Assembly: GCF_000231055.2 (NCBI RefSeq)
Contig: NZ_CM001466.1
Coordinates: forward strand, 1,956,308-2,006,670
Length of the DNA: 50,363 nucleotides
Reading direction: 5' to 3'
Origin: Saccharomonospora azurea NA-128
GTDB lineage: Bacteria > Actinomycetota > Actinomycetes > Mycobacteriales > Pseudonocardiaceae
Every line of letters begins with the position of its first letter. Positions within the stretch are counted from its first letter, which is position 1. The position numbers and the translations under genes were made by a program. The notes beneath the pieces are model-generated. The model saw only the letters and a list, made by a program, of their open reading frames with translations, was not told where the DNA came from and made no database searches. This document shows positions 36,905 to 44,868 of the stretch, piece by piece.

Positions 36905-36929
36905 CCTCCTCGCGTGGCCGCGCAGGAGG
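36905..36929 (-). promoter_or_regulatory. Hairpin that can sequester the thiB ribosome-binding site
   Basis: In the mRNA, CCTCCT-G-CGCG is followed by the loop GCCA and then CGCG-AGGAGG. The AGGAGG strand is the thiB ribosome-binding site itself. Ten base pairs with one bulged G would hide it. The element lies between the TPP aptamer and the start codon, so it is the likely output of the riboswitch at the level of translation. Confidence 0.55.
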
Positions 36930-36940
36930 TTGTGTGAAGC

Positions 36941-37029
36941 GACCTTCCTGCGTCGGCATGATCCGAATCAGGTGCGGACGGTCGTGGGCCGCGTGCCCAC
37001 CTCTCAGCCCGGCGCGCCGAACTCCCGTG
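36941..37029 (-). promoter_or_regulatory. TPP riboswitch (THI element)
   Basis: The minus strand carries the conserved TPP aptamer blocks in order: GGGCTGAGAGG, then a GTGGGC...GCCCAC stem, then ACCTGATTCGGATCATGCCG followed by ACGCAGGAAG. Spacing and order match known THI elements of actinobacteria. Binding of thiamine pyrophosphate normally represses the downstream genes; here these are the thiamine-uptake genes. Confidence 0.92.
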
Positions 37030-37069
37030 GCAGCGTGCAGCGTACCCGGCCGCGTACCACGATTGGCCC

Positions 37070-37827: not shown

Positions 37828-37935
37828 ATGCACCGCAACGCTCCTGCGCTCACCCCGAACCAGCGCACCGTGGTCGTCGCAGTCGCCACCGCGATCACGT
37901 TCCTGCTCCTTCTCGTGCTGGGTGCGCTGGGATGA
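37828..37935 (+). CDS. Tiny (35-residue) membrane protein
   Basis: The frame starts with ATG at 37828, six bases after GGAGG, and ends at a TGA at 37935. The peptide begins MHRNAPALTPNQRT and continues as one hydrophobic helix ending LLLLVLGALG. The strong ribosome-binding site, good codon use and clean membrane helix argue that it is translated. Many such mini-proteins in actinobacteria have no assigned role. It ends 11 bases before the first ATGAG-N6-CTCAT site. Confidence 0.5.
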   Translation: MHRNAPALTPNQRTVVVAVATAITFLLLLVLGALG

Positions 37936-37945
37936 CACTCGCGCG

Positions 37946-37961
37946 ATGAGAGAACTCTCAT
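37946..37961. promoter_or_regulatory. Operator-like inverted repeat, site A
   Basis: The sequence is ATGAG-AGAACT-CTCAT; the arms extend to a 7-base perfect palindrome around AA. Its centre is 53 bases upstream of the phosphotransferase-like start. The same ATGAG-N6-CTCAT pattern recurs at 39197 and 42263. Confidence 0.55.
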
Positions 37962-38006
37962 GACGGGTTCATCGAGGTCCCACGGGCGCGTTCCACCCTG
38001 TACGGA

Positions 38007-39200
38007 ATGACCCCGATCTCCCCCTCGCCCCGCGCTCGTGACCTGAACCTGTTGCTCGGTGAGTCCGCGAGGGACCTCGTGGGCACCGTCGTCGAGGCCA
38101 CCGCCGAGGGCGTCGCCGACTCGGTGCGACCGACGTCGGTGACCGTGCGGCCCTCGGGAGACACGCTCGTGCGCTACGCCGTCGCCGTCCGCCGGCGCGA
38201 CCCCCCGATCGTCCGCGAGACGCTCGTCGCCGCGACCGGAGGGCTCGTGCCCGAGGGTGCCGCGGTCGTGGCGGGTGACGTCCACGGCGAGTCCGTCGAG
38301 GTCGGTCTGTGGCGCTGGCCGCACGACCCGGCCCTGCCCGCGCTCGCCCGCGCCGTCGACGGTGAGGGTGTGCGTGCGGTGCTGGCGCGGGCCGGTGTGC
38401 CGTCGGCGCGGTCGGCGAGCGTCGCCGTGCAGACCTACCGGCCCGGGCGGCGCGCGGTGCTGGCCATCACGACCGGGTCCGAGCGGCTGTTCGCCAAAGT
38501 GGTCCCGCCGGGGGAACTGGCGGGCCTGCGCGAGCGCCACGAGCTGCTCGCGGATCACCTCCCGGTTCCCCGGCTGCTGGCCACCACCGACGACGGGCTC
38601 GCGCTCATGCCCGCCCTGCGCGGAACGTCGGGCCGGACCGCCCTGCGGCAGGGGCAGCCGATGCCCGACGCGGCGGCGCTGGAGGCGCTGCTCGATCGCC
38701 TCCCCGGCGACCTCGTCGCGATGGGGAAGACGTCCGATCACCGTCGGCGGGCTCGGCACTACGGGGCCGTGCTCGCGCTCACCGCGGGCAACGACGGCGT
38801 GCGGGCGACCGAGATCGCCGACCGGATCGCCGACGCCGACGTCGGGGAGTATCCCGTCGTCGCCGTGCACGGCGACTTCTACGAGCACCAGCTCCTCCTC
38901 GACCACGGGACCGTGACGGGGTTGCTCGACGTCGACACGGCCGGGCCGGGACGACGGATCGACGACTGGGCGAACCTCCTGGCGCATCTCGCGATCACCG
39001 ACACGCCGCACGCTCGCTCCTGGGCCGACCACGTCCTGCACCACGTGCGGGAACGCGTCGACGTCGCCCATCTGCGGCCCCGGGTCGCCTCGGCGGTGCT
39101 GGGTCTCGCCACGGGGCCGTTCCGCACCCAGCGCAGCGACTGGCGCGAGCGCACCCGTCGGCGCATCGCCCTGGCCGAAGAGTGGCTCACCGGTTCATGA
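38007..39200 (+). CDS. Phosphotransferase-family protein (aminoglycoside-phosphotransferase/kinase-like fold)
   Basis: The product has 397 residues. The C-terminal 200 residues have the APH-like kinase pattern: a glycine-poor N-lobe with LFAKVV (the Lys for ATP), then VVAVHGDFYEHQLLLDHG with the catalytic HGD, and the metal-binding segment GLLDVDTAGPGRRIDDWANLL. Members phosphorylate small molecules such as sugars, choline or aminoglycosides; the substrate is not fixed by sequence and resistance should not be assumed. The N-terminal 130 residues look like a separate domain I do not recognise. An operator-like repeat shared with the nearby two-component locus precedes it. Confidence 0.75.
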   Translation: MTPISPSPRARDLNLLLGESARDLVGTVVEATAEGVADSVRPTSVTVRPSGDTLVRYAVAVRRRDPPIVRETLVAATGGLVPEGAAVVAGDVHGESVEVGLWRWPHDPALPALARAVDGEGVRAVLARAGVPSARSASVAVQTYRPGRRAVLAITTGSERLFAKVVPPGELAGLRERHELLADHLPVPRLLATTDDGLALMPALRGTSGRTALRQGQPMPDAAALEALLDRLPGDLVAMGKTSDHRRRARHYGAVLALTAGNDGVRATEIADRIADADVGEYPVVAVHGDFYEHQLLLDHGTVTGLLDVDTAGPGRRIDDWANLLAHLAITDTPHARSWADHVLHHVRERVDVAHLRPRVASAVLGLATGPFRTQRSDWRERTRRRIALAEEWLTGS

Positions 39201-39212
39201 GAAGCCCCTCAT
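39197..39212. promoter_or_regulatory. Operator-like inverted repeat, site B
   Basis: The sequence is ATGAG-AAGCCC-CTCAT followed by CCGG. Its centre lies 91 bases before the start of the Asp-rich exported protein; it begins within the stop codon of the phosphotransferase-like gene. It matches sites A and C in half-sites and spacing and shares CTCATCCGGC with site C. Confidence 0.6.
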
Positions 39213-39295
39213 CCGGCTCTCCGGATCTTCTCACCGCCGTTCGCGAATCTGGATCACGTCAGAGACGAACACCTCCACGAGGAAGGGACAACACC

Positions 39296-39667
39296 ATGGC
39301 TGCACGTCCGAACTGGAAGATCCTGACCGTCGGCGCCGCGCTGGCGGGCCTGGGAATCACCGGCACCGGCATCGCGATGGCCGACGGCAACGGTGACGAC
39401 GCCGCGCGCGTCCAGCCGATCGAGGTCACCGCGGCACCGTCGCAGGCCGCGGACGCGGCTCCGGCACCGAACGCGGGCGACGCCGAGGGCAAGACCGGGG
39501 CGGCCGATCAGGACAGCCCCGACAACACGCCCGACGACAACTCGCCCGACGACAACTCGCCCGACAACACGCCCGACGACAACTCGCCGGACAACACCCC
39601 GGACGACGGCAGTGCCGACGACACTGCCGACGACACTGCCGACGACGACACCCCGGACAACGGCTGA
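39296..39667 (+). CDS. Exported Asp-rich repeat protein
   Basis: The product has 123 residues from an ATG at 39296 with GGAAGGGA upstream. A signal peptide covers about residues 1-29 (hydrophobic run ending GIAMA). After an Ala/Pro linker the last 55 residues consist of short repeats of the type DNSPD and DNTPD with ADDTADD at the end, encoded by imperfect 12- and 15-base tandem units. The mature protein is very acidic and has no anchor or sortase motif. Binding of divalent cations or cell-wall polymers is a reasonable guess. Site B lies upstream. It converges on the response regulator gene across a strong hairpin. Confidence 0.8.
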   Translation: MAARPNWKILTVGAALAGLGITGTGIAMADGNGDDAARVQPIEVTAAPSQAADAAPAPNAGDAEGKTGAADQDSPDNTPDDNSPDDNSPDNTPDDNSPDNTPDDGSADDTADDTADDDTPDNG

Positions 39668-39677
39668 CCTGCCTCGC

Positions 39678-39718
39678 CCCGCCTGCCGGACTCACCTCCC
39701 GCGAACCCGGCAGGCGGG
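39678..39718. terminator. Bidirectional terminator-like hairpin
   Basis: CCCGCCTGCCGG (39678-39689) pairs perfectly with CCGGCAGGCGGG (39707-39718) around a 17-base loop. It fills the 52-base gap between the convergent Asp-rich gene and the response regulator gene and can serve both. Confidence 0.65.
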
Positions 39719-39719
39719 C

Positions 39720-40385
39720 TCAGTCGCGGTCCTCCAACCGGTAGCCCATGCCCCGCACCGTGGTGATCCGGTCGCTGCCGAGCTTGCGTCGCAGATACCG
39801 CACGTACACGTCGACCACGTTGGAGCCGGGGTCGAAGTCGTAGCCCCAGACCTGGCTGAGCAGCTGCTCGCGCGAGAGCACCTGGCCGGGATGGCGCAGG
39901 AACGTCTCGGCGAGCGCGAACTCGCGGGCCGACAGGTCCACCGTCTCGGTCCCCACGTGCGCCCGTCGGGTCCGGAGGTCCAGTTGCAACCCGCCGTACG
40001 ACAACACGGTCGGCTCGCTGGCGCGGTCGGACACCAGCCGCAGCCGGACCCGTGCGAGCAGCTCCTCGAACCGGAACGGCTTGGGCATGTAGTCGTCGGC
40101 GCCGCCTTCCAGACCCGCGACGGTGTCCTGCACCGAGTCCCGCGCCGTCAGGATGATCACCGGGATGGCACAGCGCTCCGACCGGAGCTTGCGCAGCACG
40201 GTGAACCCGTCCATCCCCGGCAACCCGATGTCGAGCACCATCAGGTCGAACGACCCGGTGAGCGCGTACTCGTACGCGGCCGGGCCGTCCTCGACGACGG
40301 TGACCGCGAATCCGTTGGCCGTCAGGCCCTTGTTGACGAACGCGGCGATTCGGGGCTCGTCCTCCGCGACCAGGATGCGGCTCAT
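39720..40385 (-). CDS. OmpR-family response regulator
   Basis: The product has 221 residues. The receiver domain shows LVAEDE near the N-terminus, phospho-acceptor Asp52 in MVLDIGLPG, ILTARDS and KPFRFEELLAR. The winged-helix output domain runs from about residue 125 and ends TVRGMGYRLEDRD, with QVWGYDFDPGSNVVDVYVRYL typical of the OmpR/PhoB class. It should act on DNA when phosphorylated by the kinase encoded directly upstream; the two genes overlap as ATGA. The repeated ATGAG-N6-CTCAT sites nearby are its most likely targets, by inference. It is the last gene of the poly-Asp protein, kinase, regulator operon. Confidence 0.93.
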   Translation of the reverse strand: MSRILVAEDEPRIAAFVNKGLTANGFAVTVVEDGPAAYEYALTGSFDLMVLDIGLPGMDGFTVLRKLRSERCAIPVIILTARDSVQDTVAGLEGGADDYMPKPFRFEELLARVRLRLVSDRASEPTVLSYGGLQLDLRTRRAHVGTETVDLSAREFALAETFLRHPGQVLSREQLLSQVWGYDFDPGSNVVDVYVRYLRRKLGSDRITTVRGMGYRLEDRD

Positions 40386-41881
40386 CGTCCTCCCTCCGTG
40401 TGCCTGCCGGGGTGCGGCGGCGCCGCCACCACGGGCACCTCGACCGTGAACATGGCTCCCTGCCCGGGTTCGCTGTCCAGCGTCACCCGGCCCCCGTGGG
40501 CGGCGGCGATGGCCCGCACGATCGACAGGCCCAGCCCCGCGCCCTCGGACCGGCGGCCCGAGCCGCCGCGCGCGAACCGCTCGAAGATCCGTTCGCGGTC
40601 CTCCGCCGAGACTCCGGGTCCGGAATCCTTCACGCTGAACCGCACCATCCCGCCGCTGCTGTGGGACGAGAACGCGATGCGCCCACCCACCTCGGTGTGG
40701 CGGGCGGCGTTGTCCGCGAGCGCGACGACCGCCTGGGTGATGCGCTGCGGGTCCAGCACCGCCTCGGTGTCGGCGACGTGGTCGAGCACCCACTCACGCT
40801 CACCGAGGCCGGTGATCTTGTCGAAGACGGACGACGTGAGCGCGGCGACGTCCACGGGCTCCGCGCGCAGGAACTCCGGCTGCTCCGATTTCGCGAGCAG
40901 CAGCAGGTCCGACACCATGCGGTTCATCCGCATCAGCTCGTCCTCCACGAGCGCGAGCGTGCCCGCCACGTCGTCGGGGTCGCTGGTGTCGAGCACCTCC
41001 AGATGTCCCCGCACGATGGTGATCGGGGTGCGCAGCTCGTGCCCGGCGTCGTCGACGAACCGGCGCTGCACGGCGACGGCGTTCTCCACGCGGTCGAGCA
41101 TCGCGTTGACCGTGTCGACGAGCTCGCCGATCTCGTCACCGGGACGACGGGAGGCTTGGGGGATGCGCCGGGAGAGGTCGGTGTCGGTGATCGATCGGGC
41201 CGTCGCCGTGATGTCCCGCAACGGCCTCAGGATCCGCCCCGCGACCACCCAGGCGCCCGCGGCGACGAGGAGGATCGTGGCCGCACCGGCTCCGGCCATC
41301 AGGCGGGCGATGTCGTTGACGTCCTCGCGCTCCTGGTCGGCGAAGTAGGCGGCGACGATCACGCCCCGGCGAGGGTCCTGCGCGAGGCTCACCGGCACCG
41401 CGATGTAGCGCACCTCACCGGCCGCGCTCTCGTAGAACCCCTCCTTCGGCCGATCGACGGTCGCCACCAGGTCGGTGAAGGCCCGATCGTTGGCCAGCAA
41501 CACCGGCGCCTGCTGGCGGCTCTGGTAGGCGAACGTGCCGTCGATGTAGCCGAGGAACTTCTCGTTGGGTCGCGCGAGGTTGTAGGTGATCGCGACTTCG
41601 AGCACCTGGTCCACCCCGGAGAAGGCCTGCCCCGTGGACGGGTCGATTCCGCTCTGGGTGAGGTTGGTGAACTCCTCGATCTCACTGCGGAGCGCTTCGT
41701 CCATGCGCGCGTCGACGTCGTCCACCGACAACCGCCACGTCACGAGTGTCAGGACGGCCAGTGCCACGAACACCAGCAGCAGCATCCAGGCGATGATCCG
41801 GGCCCGCGCGGTGGACAGCGCGCGACGTCGGGGCGCGGAGGCGGGCTCGGCCTGACGCCGCCGCGAACGGGAGAGCGTCAT
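40382..41881 (-). CDS. Sensor histidine kinase
   Basis: The product has 499 residues. Membrane helix 1 is at about 29-50, an extracytoplasmic sensor region of about 140 residues follows, and helix 2 is at about 195-217, then HAMP, HisKA with His281 in DDAGHELRTPITIV, and an ATPase with NAARH, DSGPGVS and GAGLGLSIV. The outside region contains GYIDGTFAYQSRQQAPVL, as in other actinobacterial kinases; its ligand is unknown. The ATG at 41881 overlaps the stop of the poly-Asp gene by one base (TGATG), so kinase synthesis is coupled to that of the acidic protein. It pairs with the following OmpR-type regulator. Confidence 0.93.
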   Translation of the reverse strand: MTLSRSRRRQAEPASAPRRRALSTARARIIAWMLLLVFVALAVLTLVTWRLSVDDVDARMDEALRSEIEEFTNLTQSGIDPSTGQAFSGVDQVLEVAITYNLARPNEKFLGYIDGTFAYQSRQQAPVLLANDRAFTDLVATVDRPKEGFYESAAGEVRYIAVPVSLAQDPRRGVIVAAYFADQEREDVNDIARLMAGAGAATILLVAAGAWVVAGRILRPLRDITATARSITDTDLSRRIPQASRRPGDEIGELVDTVNAMLDRVENAVAVQRRFVDDAGHELRTPITIVRGHLEVLDTSDPDDVAGTLALVEDELMRMNRMVSDLLLLAKSEQPEFLRAEPVDVAALTSSVFDKITGLGEREWVLDHVADTEAVLDPQRITQAVVALADNAARHTEVGGRIAFSSHSSGGMVRFSVKDSGPGVSAEDRERIFERFARGGSGRRSEGAGLGLSIVRAIAAAHGGRVTLDSEPGQGAMFTVEVPVVAAPPHPGRHTEGGR

Positions 41882-42216
41882 CAGTCGTCGTCCGCGTCGT
41901 CATCGTCGTCGTCATCATCGTCGTCGTCGCCGAAGTCGTCACGATCGTCGACGTCGTCCAGCGCAGGCGGCGGAGCCACCATGCCGTCGTCATCGTCATC
42001 GTCATCATCGTCATCGTCGTCGGCGTCGTCCTCGTCGTCGCCAGGAGCCGGAGACGGGGACGTCGACGCCTCACCGCCGGGCGGCACTTCGGGAGTACTG
42101 ACGGTGATCGGCTGGGGCAGCGGCGGCGGGGGCTCGGACCGCGTCAACAGCAACACCACCGCGAGCACCGCACCGACCGCGAGCAGGGCCGACCCGATGA
42201 CCAGCGGACGTTTCAC
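41881..42216 (-). CDS. Membrane-anchored poly-aspartate protein, first gene of the kinase operon
   Basis: The product has 111 residues when started at the GTG at 42216. Residues 4-25 form one hydrophobic helix with no obvious cleavage site, followed by a Pro-rich linker (about 28-58) and an acidic tail containing runs of 12 (residues 66-77) and 11 (residues 97-107) consecutive Asp. The tail would sit outside the cell. A TAGAAT box 7 bases before this GTG and no ribosome-binding site suggest a leaderless mRNA; a GTG at 42240 is possible but lies upstream of that box. Translational coupling to the kinase suggests the acidic protein is a sensor partner, perhaps for cations, though this is inference. 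Confidence 0.8.
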   Translation of the reverse strand: MKRPLVIGSALLAVGAVLAVVLLLTRSEPPPPLPQPITVSTPEVPPGGEASTSPSPAPGDDEDDADDDDDDDDDDDDGMVAPPPALDDVDDRDDFGDDDDDDDDDDDADDD

Positions 42217-42223
42217 GCGGCCG

Positions 42224-42278
42224 ATTCTAGGTTCGGCCACATGGAACAGTCGTGAGACGACGATGAGAGCCCTCTCAT
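42224..42278 (-). promoter_or_regulatory. Promoter with operator-like inverted repeat, site C
   Basis: Site C, ATGAG-AGCCCT-CTCAT, lies at 42263-42278. On the minus strand a -10 box TAGAAT follows at 42229-42224, and the GTG start begins 7 bases later. The repeat centre is about 54 bases from the putative transcription start, a position typical for activation or autoregulation. Flanking CCGG is shared with site B. The -35 region is weak, consistent with a need for an activator. Confidence 0.6.
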
Positions 42279-44068: not shown

Positions 44069-44348
44069 ATGTCGCTGCATGGGTCCACGCTCGCCGGGGG
44101 CAGGCGCCATTCGATCGGTCTGCGTTCGGACGGCACGGTCGTCGCCACCGGAGACGGTTTCGCCGGCGAGTGCGACGTCCTCGCGTGGCAGAACGTCGTC
44201 GCGGTCGCCGCCGGGAACGTCCACGCGGCACGGAACACCGGCAAGTCCCACACCGTCGGGCTGCGCGCCGACGGCACCGTGGTGGCGACGGGCTGGAACG
44301 GCCATGGACAGTGCGAGGTGGACGACTGGCGAGAGATCGTCGCCATCG
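44069..44348 (+). pseudogene. 5' fragment of an RCC1-repeat protein gene
   Basis: From an ATG at 44069 with GGGGAGGTGAC upstream, the frame encodes two RCC1/BLIP-II-type beta-propeller units: HSIGLRSDGTVVATGDG with a following GECDV..W.NVVAVAAG, and HTVGLRADGTVVATGWN with GQCEV.DW.EIVAIAC. A propeller needs about seven units. After EIVAIAC the frame turns into unrelated Ser/Arg/Pro-rich residues that overlap a TetR coding frame, so the gene is truncated by recombination. The remaining start and ribosome-binding site look intact, so a chimeric peptide could still be made. Confidence 0.65.
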
Positions 44349-44868
44349 CGTGCTCTACGCGCACTTCGAGAACAAGCAGGCCGTCTTCGACGCAGCCATG
44401 GCCCGATACGGACCACAGAACTCGACAGGTGCGGTCAACGCCGTCGCCCCCGCCCTGGCCGAGACCGACCCCCCTCGATTCCTCACCGAGCTGGTGGGCG
44501 CCTTCCTCGAAGACTGGGACCGTGAAGAAGCACGATTGTTGATCAGCCTCGTGACACGGGACGGGCTGTTGCACAGCGACGCACTCCGCGCCCCCTTGAC
44601 CGGCATGCGTGACTATGCCGTCGACCTGTTCGCCAGGTGGCTCGCTGCCGAGCGGATACCTCGGCACCTCGGCCCGGCCGAGAGGCTCGCGTTCTCCTTC
44701 ACCGGCCCGATCGGCCTCGCGCGGGTGTTGCACCTCCACGCGGAGGCAAGCCCAGAGGAACGAGCCCAGGCACGCGCCGACGTCCTGCGACACGTCGAGT
44801 TCTTCACCGAAGTCGTCTTCCACGCCGAGAGCGAGCGGTACACAGGAGAGCCAAGGCCGCAGCCTTGA
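44347..44868 (+). pseudogene. 3' fragment of a TetR-family regulator gene, DNA-binding part missing
   Basis: The frame encodes VLYAHFENKQAVFDAAMARYG, which is the end of a TetR HTH, followed by an intact-looking ligand domain (FLTELVGAFLEDWDREEARLL ... EFFTEVVFHAES) to the TGA at 44868. The first 30-40 residues with the HTH are replaced by RCC1-coding sequence in another frame. The junction is near 44345-44350. A GTG at 44350 could start a protein without DNA-binding ability. Codon use matches the genome, so the fusion may be recent. Confidence 0.7.

Follow-up and report, generated by a model that had tools for sequence, protein, structure and literature searches.

Around a two-component system in a 50,363-nucleotide stretch of the Saccharomonospora azurea NA-128 chromosome (hereafter the window, by which the whole stretch is meant), a conserved stepped DNA site occurs three times: upstream of a gene for a maltokinase-like kinase, upstream of a gene for an aspartate (Asp)-rich exported protein, and upstream of an operon encoding a short poly-Asp protein, a sensor histidine kinase and an OmpR/PhoB-type response regulator. 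The three sites are very probably operators of this adjacent regulator, and the locus most likely encodes an OmpR-type system that regulates itself and includes a poly-Asp envelope protein. As judged from sequence comparison, the system is a widespread actinobacterial module. The original prediction, made from the letters of the window, had proposed a local regulon around the two-component system, and this is supported in so far as the site tracks the kinase/regulator pair and its neighbour genes across many actinobacterial families.

The prediction had placed the inverted repeat ATGAG-N6-CTCAT at three positions, and a scan of the window finds it at exactly these (37946-37961, 39197-39212 and 42263-42278), compared with an expectation of 0.02 copies; three copies were reached in 0 of 100 dinucleotide shuffles. 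A genome scan, which had been proposed as a check, returned in the complete 4.76 Mb chromosome only the window's three copies, all at this locus, so the motif is not common genome-wide; the reversed control pattern gave 0 matches across the 4.76 Mb chromosome. When the pattern was extended to 27 bases with up to 3 mismatches, the scan gave the same three sites and two weak, distant places with 3 mismatches. The putative operators are laid out as follows.

37946..37983, forward strand: operator A, upstream of the maltokinase-like gene, with half-sites ATGAG (37946-37950), CTCAT (37957-37961), TTCAT (37968-37972) and CCCAC (37979-37983)
39197..39234, forward strand: operator B, upstream of the Asp-rich exported protein gene and overlapping the stop codon of the maltokinase-like kinase gene, with half-sites ATGAG, CTCAT, CTCCG (third) and CTCAC (fourth) in an 11-bp register
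42241..42278, reverse strand: operator C, upstream of the poly-Asp/kinase/regulator operon, with half-sites ATGAG (42278-42274), CTCAT (42267-42263), CTCAC (42256-42252) and TCCAT (42245-42241)

The 16-base inverted repeat on which the prediction was built is real, but it is not the full extent of the site: conservation extends over about 38 bp, of which the inverted repeat makes up only the upstream part. The layout reads ATGAG-N6-CTCAT-N6-[C/T]TCA[C/T]-N6-(degenerate fourth), with the half-sites in an 11-bp register; on the transcribed strand, a further CTCAC, CTCAT or TTCAT stands 11 bp past the palindrome, and another 11 bp on there is often a weaker copy. In 33 nonredundant family promoters, aligned on an anchor that spanned the first 16 bases only, TCA at positions 23-25 is invariant; in a larger set, where the third half-site also lay outside the anchor, TCA is found at offset 23 in 94 of 96 promoters, where the other offsets average 0.75; at offset 34 it is seen in 17 of 96. 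The distal ATGAR half-site is inverted relative to the remaining half-sites, and it belonged to the anchor, so its conservation is no independent evidence. It has been reported that most OmpR/PhoB regulators bind direct repeats, with HP1043 named among the few that bind inverted ones (PMC3960148), and the prediction carried a caution to the same effect. This caution is eased, since the operator reads as an 11-bp direct repeat starting with the second half-site; the distal half-site is still inverted.

Within the genus Saccharomonospora, the kinase is present in 8 of 12 genomes, this one included, the other four being 82-91% complete. The comparison of orthologous loci, likewise put forward as a check, showed all three sites kept in 8/8 kinase-bearing loci, in the same order and with similar spacing, with one mismatch in site A of one locus (L056). 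At A, B and C alike, a hexamer of the loose pattern nAnnnT starts 48-49 nt after the operator start, in 8/8 genus loci each, giving the following predicted promoter elements.

37994..37999, forward strand: predicted -10 at A (CACCCT), CANNNT at the same offset in 8/8 genus loci, with the ATG 7 nt on
39245..39250, forward strand: predicted -10 at B (GAATCT), with the operator offset as at A and nAnnnT in 8/8 genus loci
42224..42229, reverse strand: predicted -10 at C (TAGAAT), TAGACT or TAGAAT in 8/8 genus loci, with the GTG 7 nt on

Because the start codon lies only about 7 nt past the predicted -10, the messenger RNAs from A and C are, to judge by position, probably leaderless. At B, the distance from the site start to the ATG is 99 nt, though the -10-like hexamer keeps the offset seen at A and C, and the messenger RNA would carry a leader of about 38 nt; the 53-54 bases between site centre and start codon noted in the prediction are therefore seen for A and C, and not for B, in agreement with the 61 nt (A) and 62 nt (C) counted from the site start. 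In the wider set of promoters, in which the poly-Asp start codon was sought 52-75 nt after the operator start, it lies 60, 61 or 62 nt past that start in 79 of 91.

In the proposed mechanism, the operator would be a ladder of one helical turn (11 bp) per step, made up of the distal ATGAR, CTCAT, [C/T]TCA[C/T] (CTCCG at B) and a weaker fourth half-site, and held at a fixed distance from the -10 so that its proximal half-sites overlap or flank the -35 region. Such ladder/-10 spacing is the geometry of a class II activator, and from it we infer binding and activation by the phosphorylated regulator, which would raise its own operon (poly-Asp protein, kinase and regulator) and also the genes of the maltokinase-like kinase and the second Asp-rich exported protein. 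It is unlikely that the regulator binds the ladder and represses, or activates some of the promoters and represses others, with the poly-Asp gene expressed without the signal: the fourth half-site does fall between the -35 and -10 positions, where a bound protein can also block polymerase, but the fixed spacing between ladder and -10, an argument from position, suits an activator better.

Outside the genus, the site was followed in relatives collected via the kinase, comprising 60 family regions and 80 named loci (the best 80 of 562 relatives). Of the family regions, 59 were part of the kinase matches, and L089, a motif place without a kinase relative, was dropped; from 140 kinase loci, L117, L136, L148 and L164 were omitted for short upstream sequence, the rest were thinned by shared 14-mers to 116, and omission of L146, whose upstream part lies off the contig, gave the 115-locus set. 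In 99 of these 115 nonredundant relatives, the 600 bp before the kinase contain the operator (three-half pattern in 85, two-half pattern in 96). Of 1008 control windows taken from these loci outside the module, 2 and 6, respectively, had the pattern, and dinucleotide shuffles of the 116-locus set gave means of 0 and 0.1, with at most 2. The family regions had been chosen with the motif places already known, and the named set, chosen by kinase similarity alone, is the cleaner test; there the operator is found in 51 of 60 loci. Counting only loci outside the genus, it is present in 91/107. Across the class, 76 of the 296 genomes scanned carry the three-half pattern, not all of the places being at this kinase, and the reversed control gave 0 among the matches listed. 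The named carriers include Streptomyces, Kitasatospora, Rhodococcus, Mycolicibacterium, Geodermatophilus, Blastococcus, Pseudonocardia, Nonomuraea, Parafrankia and an acidimicrobial metagenome assembly.

The genes linked to the operators in the window are the following.

41881..42216, reverse strand: short poly-Asp protein with an N-terminal hydrophobic segment, a Pro-rich linker and a poly-Asp C-terminal tail, its stop overlapping the kinase start
40382..41881, reverse strand: sensor histidine kinase with an N-terminal membrane/sensor part, HAMP (PF00672), HisKA (PF00512) and HATPase_c (PF02518)
39720..40385, reverse strand: OmpR/PhoB-type response regulator with Response_reg (PF00072) and Trans_reg_C (PF00486), above cut-off
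39296..39667, forward strand: Asp/Pro/Asn-rich protein of 123 residues with an N-terminal hydrophobic segment (WKILTVGAALAGLG), probably exported
38007..39200, forward strand: maltokinase/aminoglycoside-phosphotransferase-like kinase of 397 residues, assigned by motifs and predicted fold

A poly-Asp gene, taken here as one whose short product, presumably membrane-anchored or exported, has a hydrophobic segment near its N-terminus and at least 8 Asp within 20 residues of its tail, stands between operator and kinase in 94 of 99 operator loci; the count is 96 if 6 Asp are required and 81 if 10 are. Of 984 control windows, 2 gave such a gene. It is also found in 4 of the 16 loci without a strict operator (L103, L121, L181 and L182), and these four have near-matches to the operator, with 0-2 mismatches to a relaxed pattern. 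The poly-Asp protein has no Pfam or NCBIfam family match; for the Asp/Pro/Asn-rich protein there is no Pfam family, and its NCBIfam matches are all sub-threshold, such as PepSY_MTB with 17.2 bits against a cut-off of 60. In many relatives, the poly-Asp open reading frame (ORF) extends 30-60 nt into the region of the kinase reading frame, so that the N-terminus of the kinase reads these GAC repeats in a different frame, as a Thr/Met-rich segment.

The statement that each site lies upstream of a gene of the locus, namely the phosphotransferase-like gene, the Asp-rich exported protein gene and the poly-Asp/kinase/regulator operon, holds beyond this genome, for the arrangement recurs in relatives. 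Counted with a looser pattern, within 300 bp for the maltokinase-like gene and 250 bp for the second Asp-rich gene and with near-duplicate genomes included, the second Asp-rich exported gene has its own site in 24/24 loci where it was recognised (22/22 without rows outside the nonredundant set), and the maltokinase-like gene in 24/28 loci, one more not being assessable (21/25 without those rows); of 1994 control windows of 320 bp, 10 contain the looser pattern. In L081 and L091, the maltokinase-like gene is on the other strand, and the site is still present. Meanwhile, a second three-half site just past the regulator gene was found in 24 named loci, nearly all of Streptomyces; in two of the Streptomyces loci (L157 and L180), it stands 61 bp before a transporter gene, which in L180 encodes an anion transporter of the DASS type and has a glycerate kinase gene after it. 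Operator, poly-Asp protein, kinase and regulator thus form a constant core, and the outputs vary.

In the proteins themselves, D9, D52, T80 and K102 of the regulator and H281 of the kinase, its phospho-acceptor histidine, are invariant in 14 aligned homologues each. By sequence, the closest solved relatives of the regulator are PrrA, PhoP and RegX3 of Mycobacterium tuberculosis; among the best 25 of 98 matched NCBIfam families none reached its cut-off, the best being TIGR01387 with 208.8 bits against 279.2, and the curated NCBIfam cut-offs of named subfamilies (MtrA, CseB, PhoB, KdpE, CzcR/CopR and others) were not reached. The structure model of the kinase has a predicted template-modelling score (pTM) of 0.40, and its top matches are mostly cytoplasmic kinase parts; no sensor-domain relative is therefore named. 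All 17 aligned homologues of the maltokinase-like kinase share its HGD and DxD motifs, and the fold of this kinase is predicted with a mean local confidence (pLDDT) of 91. Its best Foldseek match is the mycobacterial maltokinase 4u94 (E 1.5e-10, with a template-modelling score, or TM-score, of only about 0.4), and TM-scores against maltokinases and aminoglycoside phosphotransferases are about 0.4 to 0.5 over its own length; there was no Pfam match at E 0.01 and no PDB sequence match up to E 1.

The link between regulator and operator can be followed in the stretch YDFDPG before the recognition helix, where P186 is kept in 98/98 and F184 in 96/98 operator loci with a regulator match. The DFDPG loop is degenerate in seven loci (L059, L060, L062, L064, L066, L132 and L143), all of which are of Pseudonocardia type and without the operator and the poly-Asp gene; the two named ones among them are Pseudonocardia. 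Since this stretch is the transactivation loop region in OmpR/PhoB proteins, its degeneration may reflect a lost contact with polymerase.

It is very unlikely that another transcription factor, encoded elsewhere or by the ArsR-type neighbour, binds a true 16-bp palindrome, with the two-component genes as mere targets. The sequence ATGAGAG-N2-CTCTCAT at A and C does resemble the site of a dimeric repressor, and several family genomes carry the perfect palindrome ATGAGAGCGCTCTCAT elsewhere, among the matches listed; nevertheless, the third half-site, which lies beyond the palindrome, is near-invariant (94/96), and the site accompanies the kinase/regulator pair across many families. The ArsR-type gene, the only other DNA-binding gene beside site C, was found in just 2 of the 8 genus loci and is rejected as the binder. 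Places of ATGAGAGCGCTCTCAT away from the listed kinase matches are seen in several genera (for instance G041:C50:171150, G122:C7:143514 and G246:C4:118002), and they may be sites of another regulator. There is next to no chance that the sites terminate transcription or are mobile repeats placed after stop codons by accident. The positions of A and C, about 10 bp past an upstream ORF stop, and of B, overlapping one, might suggest it, but this reading is rejected: the genome has only three copies, no T-run follows them, their distance to the downstream -10 is fixed, and the upstream genes differ in the relatives examined.

Several observations weigh against the reading of the sites as activating operators of the adjacent regulator. 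The preference for activation over repression is drawn from position only, and an inverted first half-site is unusual for OmpR-type regulators; 4 of the 115 upstream regions also carry the three-half pattern on the reverse strand. No site precedes the maltokinase-like gene in 4 of 28 loci, and 16 of the 115 kinase relatives have no strict operator within 600 bp. Besides the four of these with a poly-Asp protein and near-matches, L155 has a place with 2 mismatches and no poly-Asp protein, and L189, scored as without operator, has a three-half site 842 bp upstream; in the remaining 10, which include the seven loop-degenerate loci, neither operator nor poly-Asp gene was found. Loci without the operator retain an unchanged recognition helix, and L134 and L140 have no operator before the kinase and yet an intact loop. 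Finally, the seven loop-degenerate loci are probably one clade and represent few independent events, and they are therefore a hint and not proof.

The kinase probably senses an envelope or extracellular cue. The poly-Asp protein would be a membrane-anchored protein whose acidic tail faces outwards, and it probably either assists the kinase or feeds back on it, or else traps a cation or cationic ligand. On a more tentative view, which we hold as possible and somewhat doubtful, this would be an undescribed actinobacterial envelope-signalling module that pairs the kinase with a membrane-anchored poly-Asp protein. On the outer side of the cell, the acidic tail would bind a cation or a cationic ligand (metal ion or cationic peptide), and the phosphorylated regulator would raise the poly-Asp proteins via the stepped 11-bp operator until the ligand is buffered, while the core stays and the outputs are swapped by lineage, these being the maltokinase-like kinase, the anion transporter with glycerate kinase, and others. 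What began as a local oddity is now a predicted regulon for which the exact operator, the promoter geometry and the targets are specified. It has also brought to light two kinds of Asp-rich, probably exported proteins that match nothing in Pfam, and their steady linkage to one kinase offers a route to the function of these proteins and to the kinase signal. The module is also found in Streptomyces and Rhodococcus, so it is testable in common laboratory actinomycetes. Among the open-access papers listed in searches by sequence, topic and locus tag, none dealt with this operator or with kinase-tied poly-Asp proteins, and no name for the module was found.

Small extracytoplasmic proteins that may tune a kinase are known from CpxA-CpxR with CpxP, and also from QseG-QseE, LiaF, CseA and HbpS. 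The present system resembles CpxA-CpxR/CpxP in having a kinase/regulator pair and a small extracytoplasmic protein, a likeness by description, which here would extend to linkage and a shared promoter only; we know of no acidic tail in partners of the CpxP, QseG, LiaF, CseA or HbpS type. In Streptomyces coelicolor, SCO2142/SCO2143 is presumably the orthologue, to go by gene order; a family search that included named control genomes gave no Streptomyces among those named. In contrast to the window, the Streptomyces loci examined have the second site before a DASS-type transporter and glycerate kinase, not a maltokinase-like gene. SCO2142/SCO2143 is tabulated, unnamed in that table, as a histidine kinase-response regulator pair with an OmpR-type regulator (PMC9739842), and a point mutation in SCO2142 is given as one of four in an S. 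coelicolor mutant (PMC11272600). It has been reported that expression of the SCO2142/2143 system was unaltered on amylase oversynthesis in S. lividans, with the data not shown in that article (PMC3498368); therefore, if the orthology is right, plain secretion stress would, on that report, be disfavoured as the signal.

M. tuberculosis PhoP is alike in being an actinobacterial OmpR/PhoB regulator with direct repeats in an 11-bp register, its box being described as 7-bp motifs with a 4-bp spacer (PMC4832192). Unlike the PhoP box, the site here has the half-site CTCAT, a longer ladder and an inverted distal half-site, and all copies found in this genome lie at a single locus. CutRS of Streptomyces and MprAB of Corynebacterium glutamicum are also actinobacterial two-component systems for envelope or secretion, with the reported motifs TAWATAAA (PMC12802291) and TKTTAAGAAM (PMC12113857), respectively; the operator here (ATGAR/CTCAT) differs from both, and the locus does not belong to the CutR regulon by its motif.

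Other features of the window lie beside the locus. Just upstream of operator A, an ORF of 35 residues with one hydrophobic span (37829-37936, forward strand) is also found in L050, L053 and L056. Further upstream, a thiamine pyrophosphate (TPP) riboswitch (RF00059, 58.6 bits) lies at 36928-37038 on the reverse strand, and the genes downstream of it resemble, by eye, a thiamine-type ATP-binding cassette (ABC) transporter. At 44069-44868, a short ORF that looks like a repeat protein continues into one that resembles, again by eye, the C-terminal part of a TetR-type regulator; the junction looks disrupted, and the first part is a longer ORF in L050.

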